Virus record (IMG/VR): IMGVR_UViG_3300042904_000068
Coordinates: 1-40,556 of that record
From: a virus
Strand: one strand, 5' to 3'
Length of the DNA: 40,556 bases
Below the pieces are notes generated by a model, which saw nothing but the letters and a program-made list of their open reading frames with translations, was not told where the DNA came from and searched no databases. Below are positions 2,899-19,235 of the stretch, piece after piece (position 1 is the first letter of the stretch; every line of letters begins with the position of its first letter). A program made the position numbers and the translations under genes.

Positions 2899-3120
2899 TC
2901 AGGCGCTCCCGGCAATCACACGCGGCGTCCAGCCCTGGCTCGGCGCCGGCGCGGGTGCAGCGGCTGGCCGACCGTCGACGGCGGACCTCGTCACCACCGG
3001 GTGACCGGTGGCGTTGACGCGGAATGGTACGCCCTCGGCTTTCAGCCACTCGATCTGGCGGCTCTTGTGCCGGCGGCCGGTGAGCTGGCGGAGCTCGGCG
3101 TCGTCCAGGAACAAGCTCAC
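2899..3120 (-). CDS. DUF4224-like small protein preceding the integrase
   Basis: This 73-aa protein starts at a GTG (3120) that overlaps the stop of the upstream gene (GTGA). Residues 3-40 (LFLDDAELRQLTGRR followed by KSRQIEWLKAEG) match the pattern I know from DUF4224 proteins, small DNA-binding-like proteins often found directly upstream of phage integrases. The C-terminus is a proline/alanine-rich tail. An excisionase or directionality-factor role is a reasonable guess from position and size; the family name is from memory. Confidence 0.75.
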   Translation of the reverse strand: MSLFLDDAELRQLTGRRHKSRQIEWLKAEGVPFRVNATGHPVVTRSAVDGRPAAAPAPAPSQGWTPRVIAGSA

Positions 3121-3842
3121 GGCTGCACCCTCCGAAACTCCACCACCCACACCCAAGGGTTCGCCTCCCAGCTGCCGGCGCCGTTGATGCTGTTCCAGAG
3201 CGCCTGATACCAGTCGCGCGCCGACCGTTCCAGGTGCTTCATGCGCTTCATCCGGTGCGGCTCGACCATCCAATCCGGCGGCGTGTCACCCGTCACCTGC
3301 TGGTGCATCAAGTCGCCGTTGTGCTCGCGGTAGCCCTGCCACCAGGTGTGTGGCTTGTCGGCGGTCACACCTTCGGCCGTTGCATCGGTTTCGCTGATAG
3401 CCTGGAGGCGTTCGACGCGAACGGCGGTGATCTCCAGCGTGATCCGGGAGACGTACCTGGGCATATGAATGCTGGGTCGCCAGCGGTCGCCGAGGCGGCC
3501 CTGAATCGAGTCTGTCGCGGCATACACGAATGGGCCGTCCTCATCGCGCAGCGCGGCCATCGCGTGTATGCCGTGCGCCCACGTCTCGCGCACCCACAGC
3601 CGGCCACCTGGCTGGCCGTATGGGCACGGTGTTGGTGCGCACCGTTCCTGCCAGCAACTGCCGCCCATGCTGGTGAGTACCCAGCCGCGCGCGTCCTGAT
3701 TGACCGCCTGCAGCCCGGTGAAGCCCAAGTTCAGGCCGGGCGACACGTCGCGCCATTTCACCTCCCGCCGCGTCTGCGTCTTCGTGCCAGCGAGCAGCGC
3801 GCGCACCATGGCGCCTTGGAACAGGATCGGGCGTTCCTTCAT
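3117..3842 (-). CDS. ASCH/PUA-like phage protein of unknown function
   Basis: The 241-aa protein starts at ATG 3842, preceded by GAGGA at a normal distance. The N-terminus (KERPILFQGAMVRALLAGTK, then TQTRR) is the typical opening of a widespread phage family of ASCH/PUA-like fold. A second conserved-looking block is GGRLWVRETWAHG. ASCH domains are thought to bind RNA or modified nucleotides; no role is established for the phage versions. The C-terminus is Trp-rich (RDWYQALWNSINGAGSWEANPWVWVVEF) and overlaps the next start by 4 bp. The longer frame starting at 3875 would run into the divergent gene and is less likely. Confidence 0.75.
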   Translation of the reverse strand: MKERPILFQGAMVRALLAGTKTQTRREVKWRDVSPGLNLGFTGLQAVNQDARGWVLTSMGGSCWQERCAPTPCPYGQPGGRLWVRETWAHGIHAMAALRDEDGPFVYAATDSIQGRLGDRWRPSIHMPRYVSRITLEITAVRVERLQAISETDATAEGVTADKPHTWWQGYREHNGDLMHQQVTGDTPPDWMVEPHRMKRMKHLERSARDWYQALWNSINGAGSWEANPWVWVVEFRRVQP

Positions 3843-3845
3843 ACT
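3816..3845 (+). promoter_or_regulatory. Possible weak sigma70 promoter for the 3869 gene
   Basis: TTGGAA at 3816-3821 and CATACT at 3840-3845 are 18 bp apart, each matching four of six consensus bases. This would start transcription near 3852, just before an AGGAGA ribosome-binding site (3858-3863). The match is modest and the region also codes on the other strand. Confidence 0.35.
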
Positions 3846-3868
3846 GGCATCCTCAACAGGAGAGACGC

Positions 3869-4132
3869 ATGGCAACGCCGATTACCGCAGTGGCCTTTCA
3901 CCCCGAAGCGCCGCTGGAAGCCTTCGCCTCGATGATGCGGACAATGAAGTCGGGGGAAAGCAGCCTGCGGTACATCGACTGCAAGAAGGTCGACATGACG
4001 GACTTCGGCATGCTGCGCCTCATCCCATCGGGGGAGAACCCGGGGGACATGGCGATCTACGTCCACCCGAGCTACGTCGCCTGGATGCTGCGTGCGGACG
4101 ACCGGAAGCAGGTCGGTTTCCTGCCGGCGTAG
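3869..4132 (+). CDS. Isolated rightward gene inside the leftward operon (87 aa, unknown)
   Basis: ATG at 3869 has a strong ribosome-binding site, AGGAGA, five bases upstream. The 87-aa product looks like a real protein, with balanced composition and a hydrophobic C-terminal half (FGMLRLIPSGENPGDMAIYV). Codon usage is GC-rich like the neighbours and no opposite-strand gene covers it well. It runs against the PL operon, diverges from the ASCH-like gene (26-bp gap holding both ribosome-binding sites) and converges with the next gene (5-bp gap). No family is recognised. Its placement resembles a moron: a small, separately expressed accessory gene. Confidence 0.65.
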   Translation: MATPITAVAFHPEAPLEAFASMMRTMKSGESSLRYIDCKKVDMTDFGMLRLIPSGENPGDMAIYVHPSYVAWMLRADDRKQVGFLPA

Positions 4133-15620: not shown

Positions 15621-15827
15621 ATGCCGAAGATCGAGGAATGGCGCGCAGCCGCGCTGAAGCATTGCCTGTGGATGGCCGCGCGGGACGCGGAGTACGCGCA
15701 GTGGGCGGCCGACGAGGCGGAGCGCCTAGCCGGCGGACTGCTGGACGGACTAGCCGACAAGGTCCGAGCAGCTATCGAGAAACACACCCGCGCGCGAAAG
15801 GGGTTGCAGCGTGAAGTTCATTCGTGA
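15621..15827 (+). CDS. Small helical protein (68 aa)
   Basis: ATG 15621 lies 3 bp after the previous stop. The product is one long, mostly alpha-helical chain (EEWRAAALKHCLWMAARDAE, then YAQWAADEAERLAGGLLDGL) with a basic C-terminus. It overlaps the next gene by 17 bp. No family is recognised. Confidence 0.6.
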   Translation: MPKIEEWRAAALKHCLWMAARDAEYAQWAADEAERLAGGLLDGLADKVRAAIEKHTRARKGLQREVHS

Positions 15828-16296
15828 TGCCATCCTGCACTGGGCGCGCTCTCGTCAGCCCGACTTCGTCATCGGCGGCGCGGCGTCGCCTTACCTGCGC
15901 CGGCACTGGCTGCTGCCGCGGAATCGGTTCTTCAACGTCTACGTCCACGAGTTCCTGCGCTCGGACGAGGACCGGGCGCTGCACGACCACCCCTGGCTAT
16001 TCAATGCCTCGTGGCTGATCGCGGGGATGTACCGGGAGCACACCATCGATGCCGGTGGCGTCAGGCGCATGGTGCTGCGCTGGGCAGGCGCCTTCAAGTT
16101 CCGTTGGGGCCCTGCGCCGCACCGAGTCGAGCTCTTGGACGGCTACGACGGCTCGGCGGTGCACTGCTGGACCGTCTTCATCACCGGCCCGGTGGTCCGG
16201 ATCTGGGGCTTCCACTGCCCGAAGCGGTGGGTACCGTGGCGCGAGTTCGTCGACGATCGCGACGCTGGAGCCGTCGGCAAGGGCTGTGGCGAATGA
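15811..16296 (+). CDS. Cupin-like phage protein with an HDHPW motif (161 aa)
   Basis: GTG 15811 follows AAAGGGG. The sequence contains RALHDHPWLFNASWLIAGMY and later GPAPHRVELLDG, His-rich beta-strand signatures of a cupin/double-stranded beta-helix fold that would bind a metal. The C-terminal GPVVRIWGFHCPKRWVPWRE continues the pattern. Similar proteins occur in nin-like regions of phages, with no known function. It overlaps the next gene by 4 bp. Confidence 0.7.
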   Translation: MKFIRDAILHWARSRQPDFVIGGAASPYLRRHWLLPRNRFFNVYVHEFLRSDEDRALHDHPWLFNASWLIAGMYREHTIDAGGVRRMVLRWAGAFKFRWGPAPHRVELLDGYDGSAVHCWTVFITGPVVRIWGFHCPKRWVPWREFVDDRDAGAVGKGCGE

Positions 16297-16814: not shown

Positions 16815-17407
16815 CGTTCGCGACCACGAAGCCGCCGCGATGCAAGCACTGCAAGGCCCGCACCGACCGGCCAGGCAGGGTGCTGCACGACGACTGCGTG
16901 GGGCCGTGGTACGAGGCGAACCGGGAGAAGCTGGCCAGGAAAGCGGAACGCAAGAAAGAGCTCGCCGCGCGCGCCGAGAAGGCGAAGGACCGGCAGACGC
17001 TCGAGGCGATGAAGACGATGCCCAAGCTGCACAAGGAGGCGCGCTTCTGGTTCAACCGCTGGATTCGCCTTCGCGACGCTGAGAAGCCGTGCATTTCCTG
17101 CGGCGCACCACCGCCGGACCTCAGCGGGCTGCATGCCGGGCGGGACTGTGGCCACTTCCGCAGCGTCGGCTCTGCTGGCCACCTCCGGTATTCGGAGGAC
17201 AACGCCGCGGCGCAGTGCGTGCACTGCAACCAACACCTGAGCGGCAACTACCTGGGCTTCCGCAACGGACAAATCGAGCGGATCGGGCTGGCTCGGGTTG
17301 AGGCGCTGGAAAACGACAACCGGCCCGAGAAGTGGCAGCGCGACCAGGTGCGCGGCATCCGGGACACGTACCGCGCCCGTGTGCGTGAACTGAAGAAGGT
17401 GAAGTGA
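16811..17407 (+). CDS. ninG: NinG/Rap recombination protein
   Basis: This 198-aa protein aligns along its length with lambda NinG (Rap): an N-terminal zinc motif CKHCKA, a long basic helix (KLARKAERKKELAARAEKAK), KEARFWFNRWIRLRDAEKPC, then CISCGAP, GRDCGHFRSVGSAGHLRYSE and AQCVHCNQHLSGNYLGFRNG. Rap is a Holliday-junction/D-loop endonuclease that promotes phage recombination and packaging-competent concatemers. The start ATG 16811 overlaps the previous stop. Confidence 0.92.
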   Translation: MTFATTKPPRCKHCKARTDRPGRVLHDDCVGPWYEANREKLARKAERKKELAARAEKAKDRQTLEAMKTMPKLHKEARFWFNRWIRLRDAEKPCISCGAPPPDLSGLHAGRDCGHFRSVGSAGHLRYSEDNAAAQCVHCNQHLSGNYLGFRNGQIERIGLARVEALENDNRPEKWQRDQVRGIRDTYRARVRELKKVK

Positions 17408-17712
17408 TGCCCCGCGCCAAGGTTCTCGACGCCAATCCTTACGGCCTGTCCTACCGCGAGTGCGAGGTCCTGGAGGAGCTGATCCGCTTGGGCAGCCCGA
17501 AGGCGGTCGCGGCGTCCGAAGGGCTGGATCCCAAGACGGTCCGCAACGTGATGCGCAGCGCCGTCAAGCGCATGAAGGCGAAGACCCCGCTTCAGGCCGC
17601 GGTCATGTTCGACCGCGAGCTGCGGCGCGGCGCGACTTACGCCGGCCGGCAGAGCCCGGTCCGCAGCGTCTTCGACCTCGGAAACGACAACAGCAGGAGC
17701 GCAGCAGCATGA
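17407..17712 (+). CDS. LuxR/GerE-type helix-turn-helix protein (101 aa)
   Basis: ATG 17407 overlaps the ninG stop (TGATG); a GTG at 17404 is an alternative. Residues about 14-55 (LSYRECEVLEELIRLGSPKA, then VAASEGLDPKTVRNVMRSAV) form a GerE-like HTH closely resembling the LuxR DNA-binding domain, without a receiver domain. The location near the end of the early operon suggests a transcriptional regulator, possibly of late genes. Confidence 0.78.
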   Translation: MPRAKVLDANPYGLSYRECEVLEELIRLGSPKAVAASEGLDPKTVRNVMRSAVKRMKAKTPLQAAVMFDRELRRGATYAGRQSPVRSVFDLGNDNSRSAAA

Positions 17713-17942
17713 CCGAAGCAAAGCCGGAACCGTTCGACGTCCGATGGCTGGGCGAGCTGCAGGCGCTGAAGCTGAAGCCGGGCGAGAAGTTCGTGCTGCA
17801 GTTCCAGACCATCCTCAATCCCGAGCAGCGCGAGCGCGTGCTGGAGCAGTGGAACCGCTTCATGCCGGGAGTGGAGCTGCTGGTGGTCGAGGGCGGCGCC
17901 CGGCTCAGTGCGGCGCAGGTGCCGGAACAACAGAAGGAGTGA
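17709..17942 (+). CDS. Small hypothetical protein (77 aa)
   Basis: ATG 17709 overlaps the previous stop. It has a strand-helix pattern (KPGEKFVLQFQTILNPEQRE, then RVLEQWNRFMPGVELLVVEG). No domain is recognised, though the composition is that of a folded protein. Two bases separate its stop from the next ATG. Confidence 0.7.
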   Translation: MTEAKPEPFDVRWLGELQALKLKPGEKFVLQFQTILNPEQRERVLEQWNRFMPGVELLVVEGGARLSAAQVPEQQKE

Positions 17943-17944
17943 CC

Positions 17945-18586
17945 ATGCTGGCAGACACGAACGACCGCCCGAGCCTGGAGGAGCAGTACCTGCTCGCCAC
18001 CAGCAGCAGCAACTTGACGCTGAACCCAGACCGGACCTGCGCGGCGACGCACCTGATCGCCGCAGGCCTCACCGGCAACCGCATGGGCGAGGCGCTGAGC
18101 CATCTGCGCAGCGAGTGGCAGTCGGCCGGCAAGCCGCGCAAGGCGACGGAAGCTGAGATCCTGAAGCGCGCCGAGACTCTGCCGAAGCTGCGCGGCAAGC
18201 CGGACGTGAAGCGGGCGCGCACGGTGGTGCTGGTGGAGCACGCCGCGGCGATGCGGAAGCGCGCGCACCAGCTCCTCGGCTGGGCGCCGACCATGCGCCT
18301 GCTGCTGGAGTGGGCCGTCGCGCGCGGCATCGAGCCGGACATCCTGAGCCCGGCGCTGTACCACTGGCTGGCGCCGGCGTGCCCGGTGTGCGACGGACAC
18401 GGCCAGCGGAAGCTGCCGGACGCGCCGGTCCTGAGCACGAAGCGGTGCAACCACTGCGCCGGCACCGGGAAGTGGCCCCGGCCGCCGGGCGCGGAGGTGG
18501 TGCACGACTGGCTGCAGCGGTGCGCCGGGAAGGCGAAGCACGACCGCGGCGCGCTGGTGCGCGGGGCGCCGATCTTCGACCGTTGA
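17945..18586 (+). CDS. Zinc-finger protein; candidate Q-like late antiterminator (213 aa)
   Basis: ATG 17945 follows AGAAGGAG. The N-terminal two-thirds are helical. Residues about 143-180 hold two C-x-x-C-x-G-x-G knuckles, CPVCDGHG and CNHCAGTG, as in DnaJ-type zinc fingers and in several phage Q antiterminators. It lies near the end of the early operon, ~350 bp upstream of a PR'-like promoter with a terminator 110 nt downstream, exactly where a Q gene belongs. The assignment rests on position plus zinc motif and is not certain. Confidence 0.6.
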   Translation: MLADTNDRPSLEEQYLLATSSSNLTLNPDRTCAATHLIAAGLTGNRMGEALSHLRSEWQSAGKPRKATEAEILKRAETLPKLRGKPDVKRARTVVLVEHAAAMRKRAHQLLGWAPTMRLLLEWAVARGIEPDILSPALYHWLAPACPVCDGHGQRKLPDAPVLSTKRCNHCAGTGKWPRPPGAEVVHDWLQRCAGKAKHDRGALVRGAPIFDR

Positions 18587-18941: not shown

Positions 18942-18971
18942 TTGACACGTATTGACGCGCTAGTGTAGGAT
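18942..18971 (+). promoter_or_regulatory. PR'-like late promoter
   Basis: TTGACA (18942-18947) and TAGGAT (18966-18971) are 18 bp apart; a second TTGACG at 18952-18957 may contribute to regulator binding. It starts transcription near 18978, after the last early gene and before the packaging genes, with an intrinsic terminator about 110 nt downstream. This is the arrangement of lambda PR'/tR'. Confidence 0.75.
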
Positions 18972-18977
18972 GCGCGC

Positions 18978-19113
18978 CATCACTCCGCGCGTCGGAGTCT
19001 CGCCCAACGCGGGCAGTCTGTCGAACCACACGCCCGGCGTTGCACCCGGGAGTCGATACCGCAACGGACCTGCTCGCCCTGAATTTGGCCGCCCACTGAG
19101 GCGGCTTTCGTTT
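18978..19113 (+). ncRNA. Short terminated late leader (6S-like) RNA
   Basis: About 136 nt lie between the PR'-like start point and the terminator. The segment has no plausible coding sequence but several stems: ACTCCG with CGGAGT near the start, CCCGG with CCGGG in the middle, and a GTTGC/GCAAC pairing. In lambda the equivalent transcript is the 6S RNA produced until Q allows readthrough. Exact ends are predicted, not observed. Confidence 0.6.
19088..19113 (+). terminator. tR'-like terminator
   Basis: GCCGCC (19088-19093) pairs with GGCGGC (19100-19105) around a CACTGA loop, followed by TTTCGTTT. The position fits the terminator a late antiterminator must overcome. Confidence 0.8.
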
Positions 19114-19115
19114 CT

Positions 19116-19235
19116 GTCAGCGTGCCAGAGAGTGCCGCAAGGCCGGTCGAATGGTGACTCACGCAAAAGGTATCCGGTGGCGCGTGTGAGCCTATACCGG
19201 GTTCCTCGCACGTTCGAATCGTGCCGCTGACACCC
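19116..19235 (+). ncRNA. tRNA-like cloverleaf of about 120 nt
   Basis: GTCAGCG (19116-19122) pairs perfectly with CGCTGAC (19225-19231), followed by A-CC. TG at 19123-19124 fits tRNA positions 8-9. A perfect T-arm GCACG-TTCGAAT-CGTGC occupies 19208-19224. Between them are a GCC-GCAA-GGC hairpin (19134-19143) in the D-arm position and a 7-bp stem 19158-19164/19184-19190 with a 19-nt loop where the anticodon arm should be. No standard 7-nt anticodon loop is found and the whole is some 30-40 nt too long. It may be a tRNA-like regulatory RNA, a degenerate or interrupted tRNA, or part of the late leader. Confidence 0.55.

Follow-up and report, generated by a model that had tools for sequence, protein, structure and literature searches.

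Pseudoknotted tRNA-like RNAs lacking an anticodon loop form a family in phage genomes

In tmRNA (ssrA), tRNA-like ends without an anticodon are joined to a pseudoknot, and the mascRNA of MALAT1 is a tRNA-like element that RNase P and RNase Z cut out of a long transcript. Viral examples of tRNA mimicry combined with pseudoknotting are provided by the 3' tRNA-like structures of plant viruses such as TYMV (PMC4810234), and the tRNAs encoded by phages are thought to counter tRNA-targeting defences (PMC10264068). In this report, we describe an element in the late leader of a lambda-like phage that retains much of bacterial tRNA-Ser, carries a pseudoknot in place of the anticodon arm and belongs to a phage RNA family that appears to be undescribed so far; no description of such an RNA was found in the open-access literature.

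The DNA under study, hereafter the window, covers positions 1 to 40,556 of the IMG/VR virus record IMGVR_UViG_3300042904_000068 (40,556 nucleotides). It represents a lambda-like phage with an integrase (1729-2895), an Erf-like annealing protein, CI- and CII-like regulators, a replication initiation protein, NinG/Rap, an HNH endonuclease, TerS and TerL. An unusual cargo gene (15811-16296) lies between the replication genes and NinG, and its product matches a cysteine dioxygenase PHROG (phrog_4786, E 4.5e-49) and no Pfam family. Upstream of the late promoter, a small LuxR-type helix-turn-helix protein (17404-17712) is a possible late regulator. The features of the late leader are collected in Table 1. 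By its position, the zinc-motif protein encoded just before the promoter is a candidate late antiterminator; a family search of the window proteins found no family match for a late antiterminator or Q homologue.

Table 1. Features of the late leader of the window and parts of its tRNA-like RNA
Feature	Coordinates	Strand	Remarks
CXXCXGXG zinc-motif protein, just 5' of the promoter	17744..18586	+	weak DnaJ_CXXCXGXG match below cut-off
Sigma-70-like promoter TTGACA-18-TAGGAT, candidate late promoter pR'	18942..18971	+	region about 90% conserved in L002
tR'-like intrinsic terminator	19087..19114	+	hairpin 19087-19106 and T-rich tail
tRNA-like RNA, whole element including CCC tail	19116..19235	+	87-89 bits with family models, to which the window sequence itself contributed
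Acceptor stem, 5' strand GTCAGCG	19116..19122	+	pairs with 19225-19231 (perfect 7 bp); covaries in family
D-arm	19125..19154	+	stem CCA 19125-19127 / TGG 19152-19154; seryl-type loop GAG-A-..GG..AA
D-loop insertion with GNRA hairpin GCC-GCAA-GGC (19134-19143)	19133..19144	+	private to window member
Conserved TGA after D-stem	19155..19157	+	partly ascertained: discovery pattern had TGAC
Pseudoknot helix H1, 5' strand CTCACGC	19158..19164	+	pairs with 19184-19190; covaries; 0/10000 permutations
Arm S2, 5' strand	19168..19181	+	covariation, permutation test, single-member folds
Helix H1, 3' strand GTGTGAG	19184..19190	+	within S2 apical loop
Arm S2, 3' strand	19190..19206	+	3-nt bulge (UAU here, usually AAU); 1 nt short of T-stem
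T-arm GCACG-TTCGAAT-CGTGC	19208..19224	+	perfect; covaries in family
Acceptor 3' strand CGCTGAC, discriminator A73, CCC	19225..19235	+	CCA not encoded

The initial annotation had placed a tRNA-like element just past the terminator; the element indeed starts 9 nt after the terminator hairpin, and all of the parts listed for it were recovered in place, including TG (U8-G9) at positions 8-9. A scan for an acceptor stem, T8R9 and T-arm found it as the sole match in the window and returned no match in 150 Markov-shuffled windows. Its folding energy is moderately better than chance (MFE z -1.87), and it is the covariation in homologues, described below, that is decisive for regarding the element as real. 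Two readings of its interior were correct in pairing but not in meaning. The 7-bp stem described as enclosing a 19-nt loop is present as CTCACGC/GTGTGAG but is a conserved pseudoknot helix, H1, rather than a plain hairpin, and the last G of its 3' strand (19190) is also the first base of the 3' strand of arm S2. Similarly, the GNRA hairpin exists but is an insertion in the D-loop of this member and not part of the common fold.

A close relative (L002/L011), whose TerL is 97% identical and whose promoter and leader are about 90% conserved, also has the sequence that follows the element in common with the window; however, it lacks the tRNA-like RNA and has some 150 nt of different sequence ahead of its terminator. 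Thus, the element is dispensable and is an exchangeable insert. The stretch in L002 (about 2690-2835), to which nothing corresponds at the equivalent place in the window, may be another RNA element.

The window element is not a one-off but one member of a family. No convincing direct DNA homologue was found in GenBank phages and plasmids, and exact-pattern scans using the window sequence gave no match. A TerL search of sequenced genomes led to prophages of Beta- and Gammaproteobacteria, and an Acidovorax bin (L157) contains a homologue with a GCAAAAGGT stretch in the same slot. Additional copies came from pattern scans, a covariance model recovered divergent members in four non-seed genomes among 399 of the seed family, and a pattern of D-arm plus TGAC matched 42 viral stretches, most with the full structure. 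Viral and genome collections yielded 41 members, most of the family being metagenomic contigs, and Vibrio phage V6Aob and Sphingobium phage Lacusarx were found in addition; one of the 41 (L272) sits in Erwinia phage Faunus. The records of these three named phages carry the element without any RNA annotation, and no convincing DNA homologue of the Faunus copy was found in E. coli genomes. Among the cellular genomes sampled, the family is rare and nearly absent: at the strict threshold, none of 299 genomes of another order matched and a class sample gave nothing beyond the seed, and in a phylum sample (Pseudomonadota, model R3) the seed alone stood out clearly from the tRNA background. Matches to host tRNA genes reach about 53 bits with model R1 and 60 bits with R3 and, judged by their lengths and scores and not by individual annotation, would be mainly tRNA-Ser. 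At a lax threshold over Pseudomonadota, the R3 matches were mostly at or below 60 bits and were read as host tRNAs; this range overlaps the weakest members, whose assignment rests on the H1/S2 pairing, and the E-values of the family models are rough.

The family and its fold are well supported. The consensus reads acceptor(7)-TG-CCN-GAGNGGNNNAA-NGG-TGAC, after which come a 13-nt strand and S2, a hairpin arm of about 13 bp. S2 is interrupted by a 3-nt AAU-like bulge and stops 1-2 nt short of the T-stem, and its apical loop base-pairs with the 13-nt strand over 4-7 bp (H1) to form a pseudoknot. The copies of V6Aob and Lacusarx read TGAT instead of TGAC, and the invariance of the D-arm and TGAC is partly built in, both having been fixed in the discovery pattern. 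It is likewise well supported that the family lacks an anticodon loop and bears the H1/S2 pseudoknot in its place between the D- and T-arms; with acceptor, D-arm and T-arm kept, the elbow is presumably kept as well. Seven members folded singly all gave an unpaired start of 13-14 nt and S2. In an alignment of eight members, 93% of cells were paired and double changes occurred at 20 of 32 pairs (0/500 shuffles), and the helices covaried among related phages as the initial annotation had anticipated for a genuine structure, with a structure score over 24 diverse members of 0.773 versus 0.203 when shuffled (0/500). In a purely sequence-based alignment of these 24, the acceptor, D, T and S2 helices were among the column pairs that covaried most strongly, and the H1 pairs ranked lower. 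H1 is just 65% paired in the 24-member alignment because its register shifts from member to member. A per-member permutation test copes with this shift, and over 28 members it gave mean scores of 5.07 versus 2.12 permuted for H1 and 19.6 versus 15.2 for S2, neither of which was reached in 10,000 permutations. Acceptor pairing is poor in four members (L271, L274, L276 and L262). The D-loop measures 11 nt in 36 of 37 distinct members and 24 nt in the window member. Over the distinct members, the discriminator N73 varies (A 16, T 8, C 7, G 6), and an encoded CCA is often lacking, yet the fold persists; this argues against one fixed amino-acid identity.

The element descends from, or resembles, a seryl-type tRNA, and that it goes back to tRNA is clear. 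It has the acceptor stem, a D-arm with GG and a T-arm with GTTCRANNC, and no 7-nt anticodon loop on a 5-bp stem; a pseudoknot stands in place of the normal anticodon loop, whose absence was noted at the outset. In the window element, ARAGORN reported no tRNA and no Rfam family exceeded its threshold; at E 10, the sole Rfam match in the window was unrelated, sub-threshold and outside the element. ARAGORN called no tRNA in the elements of the other members on which it was run, and Rfam at the gathering threshold gave no match to the element in 14 member loci. With permissive Rfam settings, one member (L286) reached 30.9 bits to RF00005 against a gathering threshold of 29, a marginal tRNA match, and one member gave a weak sub-threshold tmRNA match. 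The earlier proposal of an interrupted tRNA fails, because no excision restores a normal anticodon loop and the position of the supposed insert is occupied by a covarying pseudoknot common to dozens of phages; ARAGORN in its default intron mode found nothing, and its relaxed mode gave merely unrelated matches of low quality. A reading as an intron is thus disfavoured.

The genomic position of the element recurs among members. A terminator precedes it by 7-20 nt in 15 of 41 members, compared with 3.1% of random positions, and these 15 stand at the head of late operons, ahead of the terminase genes. In 10 loci a large downstream ORF was tested, the largest ORFs being picked, and in 9 of them it encodes a terminase large subunit; HNH or TerS genes are often found in between. 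In related phages, ordinary tRNAs or other odd tRNA-like elements fill the same slot, and several members adjoin tRNA genes: in L264 a tRNA-Gly begins at 3114, 3-4 nt past N73; in V6Aob the element lies 6 nt downstream of a tRNA-Gly; and in L256, L261 and L265 tRNA genes are found within about 16 nt. Two tRNA genes (Ile, Gly) immediately precede the V6Aob element (L321, 2808-2984) and are unannotated in its record, and in Lacusarx the tRNA-like RNA (L322, 2994-3116) is followed about 0.5 kb further on by a phage tmRNA gene (3633-4026).

Other tRNA-like elements were noted in late regions. A prophage of Cupriavidus respiraculi (L150, 3560-3700) has one in the late-leader slot that falls outside the family described here, with a long anticodon stem (GCTTGGG) and a loop carrying GGGTCAAAAGCCC twice. 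Another, in L087 (3972-4065), is leucyl-like and of class II, comes right after a terminator, has a 7-bp anticodon stem with a 12-nt loop and is Tyr(ata) according to ARAGORN. The late region of a Chitinasiproducens prophage (L169, 1340-1460) contains a T-arm-like element with GAAAAGG nearby and without a clear 5' half.

From the structure, the family and its genomic position, which are established directly, we infer a course of expression, processing and action in trans on a host target. The members are probably phage-made tRNA-like RNAs that are excised by tRNA-processing enzymes and serve in trans as non-decoding tRNA mimics. In lambda, late genes are expressed through antitermination by Q; in the window, promoter, terminator and element follow one another in that order, which suggests that the RNA would be made only if late antitermination succeeds. 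Given the tRNA-like ends and the members adjoining phage tRNAs, the RNA would then be released by RNase P and 3' tRNA-processing enzymes, with CCA added where needed; the adjacency to tRNA genes is suggestive of RNase P/Z cleavage at the acceptor ends. A mimic cut by RNase P/Z, as initially proposed, is plausible. The mature RNA would most likely engage host proteins that read the acceptor and elbow. Since it is structural parts that are conserved and N73 is variable, the RNA is unlikely to hinge on a single amino-acid identity. Perhaps the RNA is a decoy in tRNA-directed defence, although this particular role is a guess and a rather doubtful one.

Alternatively, the element might serve only as a mark for processing, where cleavage of the late transcript by RNase P and 3' tRNA endonucleases removes the structured leader, the excised RNA being inert. 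The many members right after a terminator and before packaging genes, and the ordinary tRNAs in the same slot of related phages, are what such a mark would produce; an ordinary tRNA would do, however, yet an elaborate pseudoknot is kept over very divergent phages, also in members without an upstream terminator and in members inside tRNA arrays. Because a mere cleavage signal has no need of a conserved pseudoknot, the RNA is likely to have a role of its own once excised, and we consider an inert product unlikely. It is also improbable, to a like degree, that the RNA is aminoacylated (seryl-like, judging by the D-arm and the placement of the arm, or leucyl, judging by A73) and either supplies or sequesters an amino acid, or else enters the ribosome, for example a stalled one, with the pseudoknot mimicking the codon-anticodon helix. 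The seryl-type D-arm, the arm beside the T-stem, which resembles a class II variable arm, the tRNA-Ser-like host genes that appear to be the best cellular matches (by inference, not individual annotation) and the anticodon independence of bacterial SerRS and LeuRS all fit this idea; the unconserved discriminator and the frequent lack of an encoded CCA speak against it. A regulator of aminoacylation, as once proposed, is possible but unsupported, again with a varying N73.

The remaining readings are disfavoured. Decay of a tRNA pseudogene by insertions could account for the missing anticodon, for the private D-loop insertion of the window and for the odd elements in the same slot of L087 and L150; it is contradicted by compensatory changes in all helices over the family and is very unlikely. 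An attP core or tRNA fragment for integration, suggested by the likeness of the T-arm and acceptor 3' half to tRNA attachment cores, is almost certainly wrong, with the integrase gene about 16 kb away and the whole structure covarying, 5' half included. Nor do we give any real credence to a chance fold, for which the modest folding z-score might be cited, against the shuffled windows without such elements and homologues in many phages.

We tentatively go further with the preferred reading, that of an excised mimic acting in trans, and suggest that the family may be a new functional class of anticodon-less, pseudoknotted tRNA mimics used against the tRNA-handling or translation machinery of the host and made with the late genes in lambda-like cases; we regard this as an open bet of nearly even chances. 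If it is true, phages ranging from small lambda-like prophages to jumbo phages have a structured RNA in common that annotation pipelines have missed, a natural tRNA mimic in which the decoding part has been swapped for a pseudoknot. The purpose of phage tRNA clusters would also become testable through an RNA that is unable to serve codon supply, and the family includes named phages in which the element can be deleted.

Among the known systems compared, bacterial class II tRNA-Ser shares with the family the acceptor stem with U8-G9 after it, a D-stem of 3 bp closed by a GAGNGGNNNAA loop, the T-arm and an arm beside the T-stem; in contrast, the family has no anticodon stem-loop, bears a 13-nt strand and a pseudoknotted arm of about 13 bp, varies at N73 and leaves ARAGORN silent. 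The phage tRNAs considered to evade defences (PMC10264068) are similarly phage-encoded, found in tRNA clusters and altered in the anticodon loop, but they decode, with mutations in the loop, whereas the family RNA cannot. Unlike TYMV-type structures, the family has an ordinary 7-bp acceptor stem, uses its pseudoknot to stand in for the anticodon arm and is a separate element inside the operons of DNA phages rather than the 3' end of an RNA genome. The mascRNA is unrelated in sequence and has no pseudoknot of the H1/S2 kind. In comparison with tmRNA, the family has no conserved tag frame, since the short GCA frame of the window (GCA-AAA-GGT to stop; AKGIRWRV*) and of L157 (AKGLRGA*) is open in L251 and L252; the window has C3-G70 in place of the alanine identity pair G3:U70, the full D-stem is kept, and the length is about 105 nt against about 350. 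We set the family apart as a new kind, because it departs from every known tRNA-like class in features that define that class. If the new-class reading holds, which we leave close to balanced, the relation of the family to tRNA-Ser would roughly mirror that of tmRNA to tRNA-Ala.
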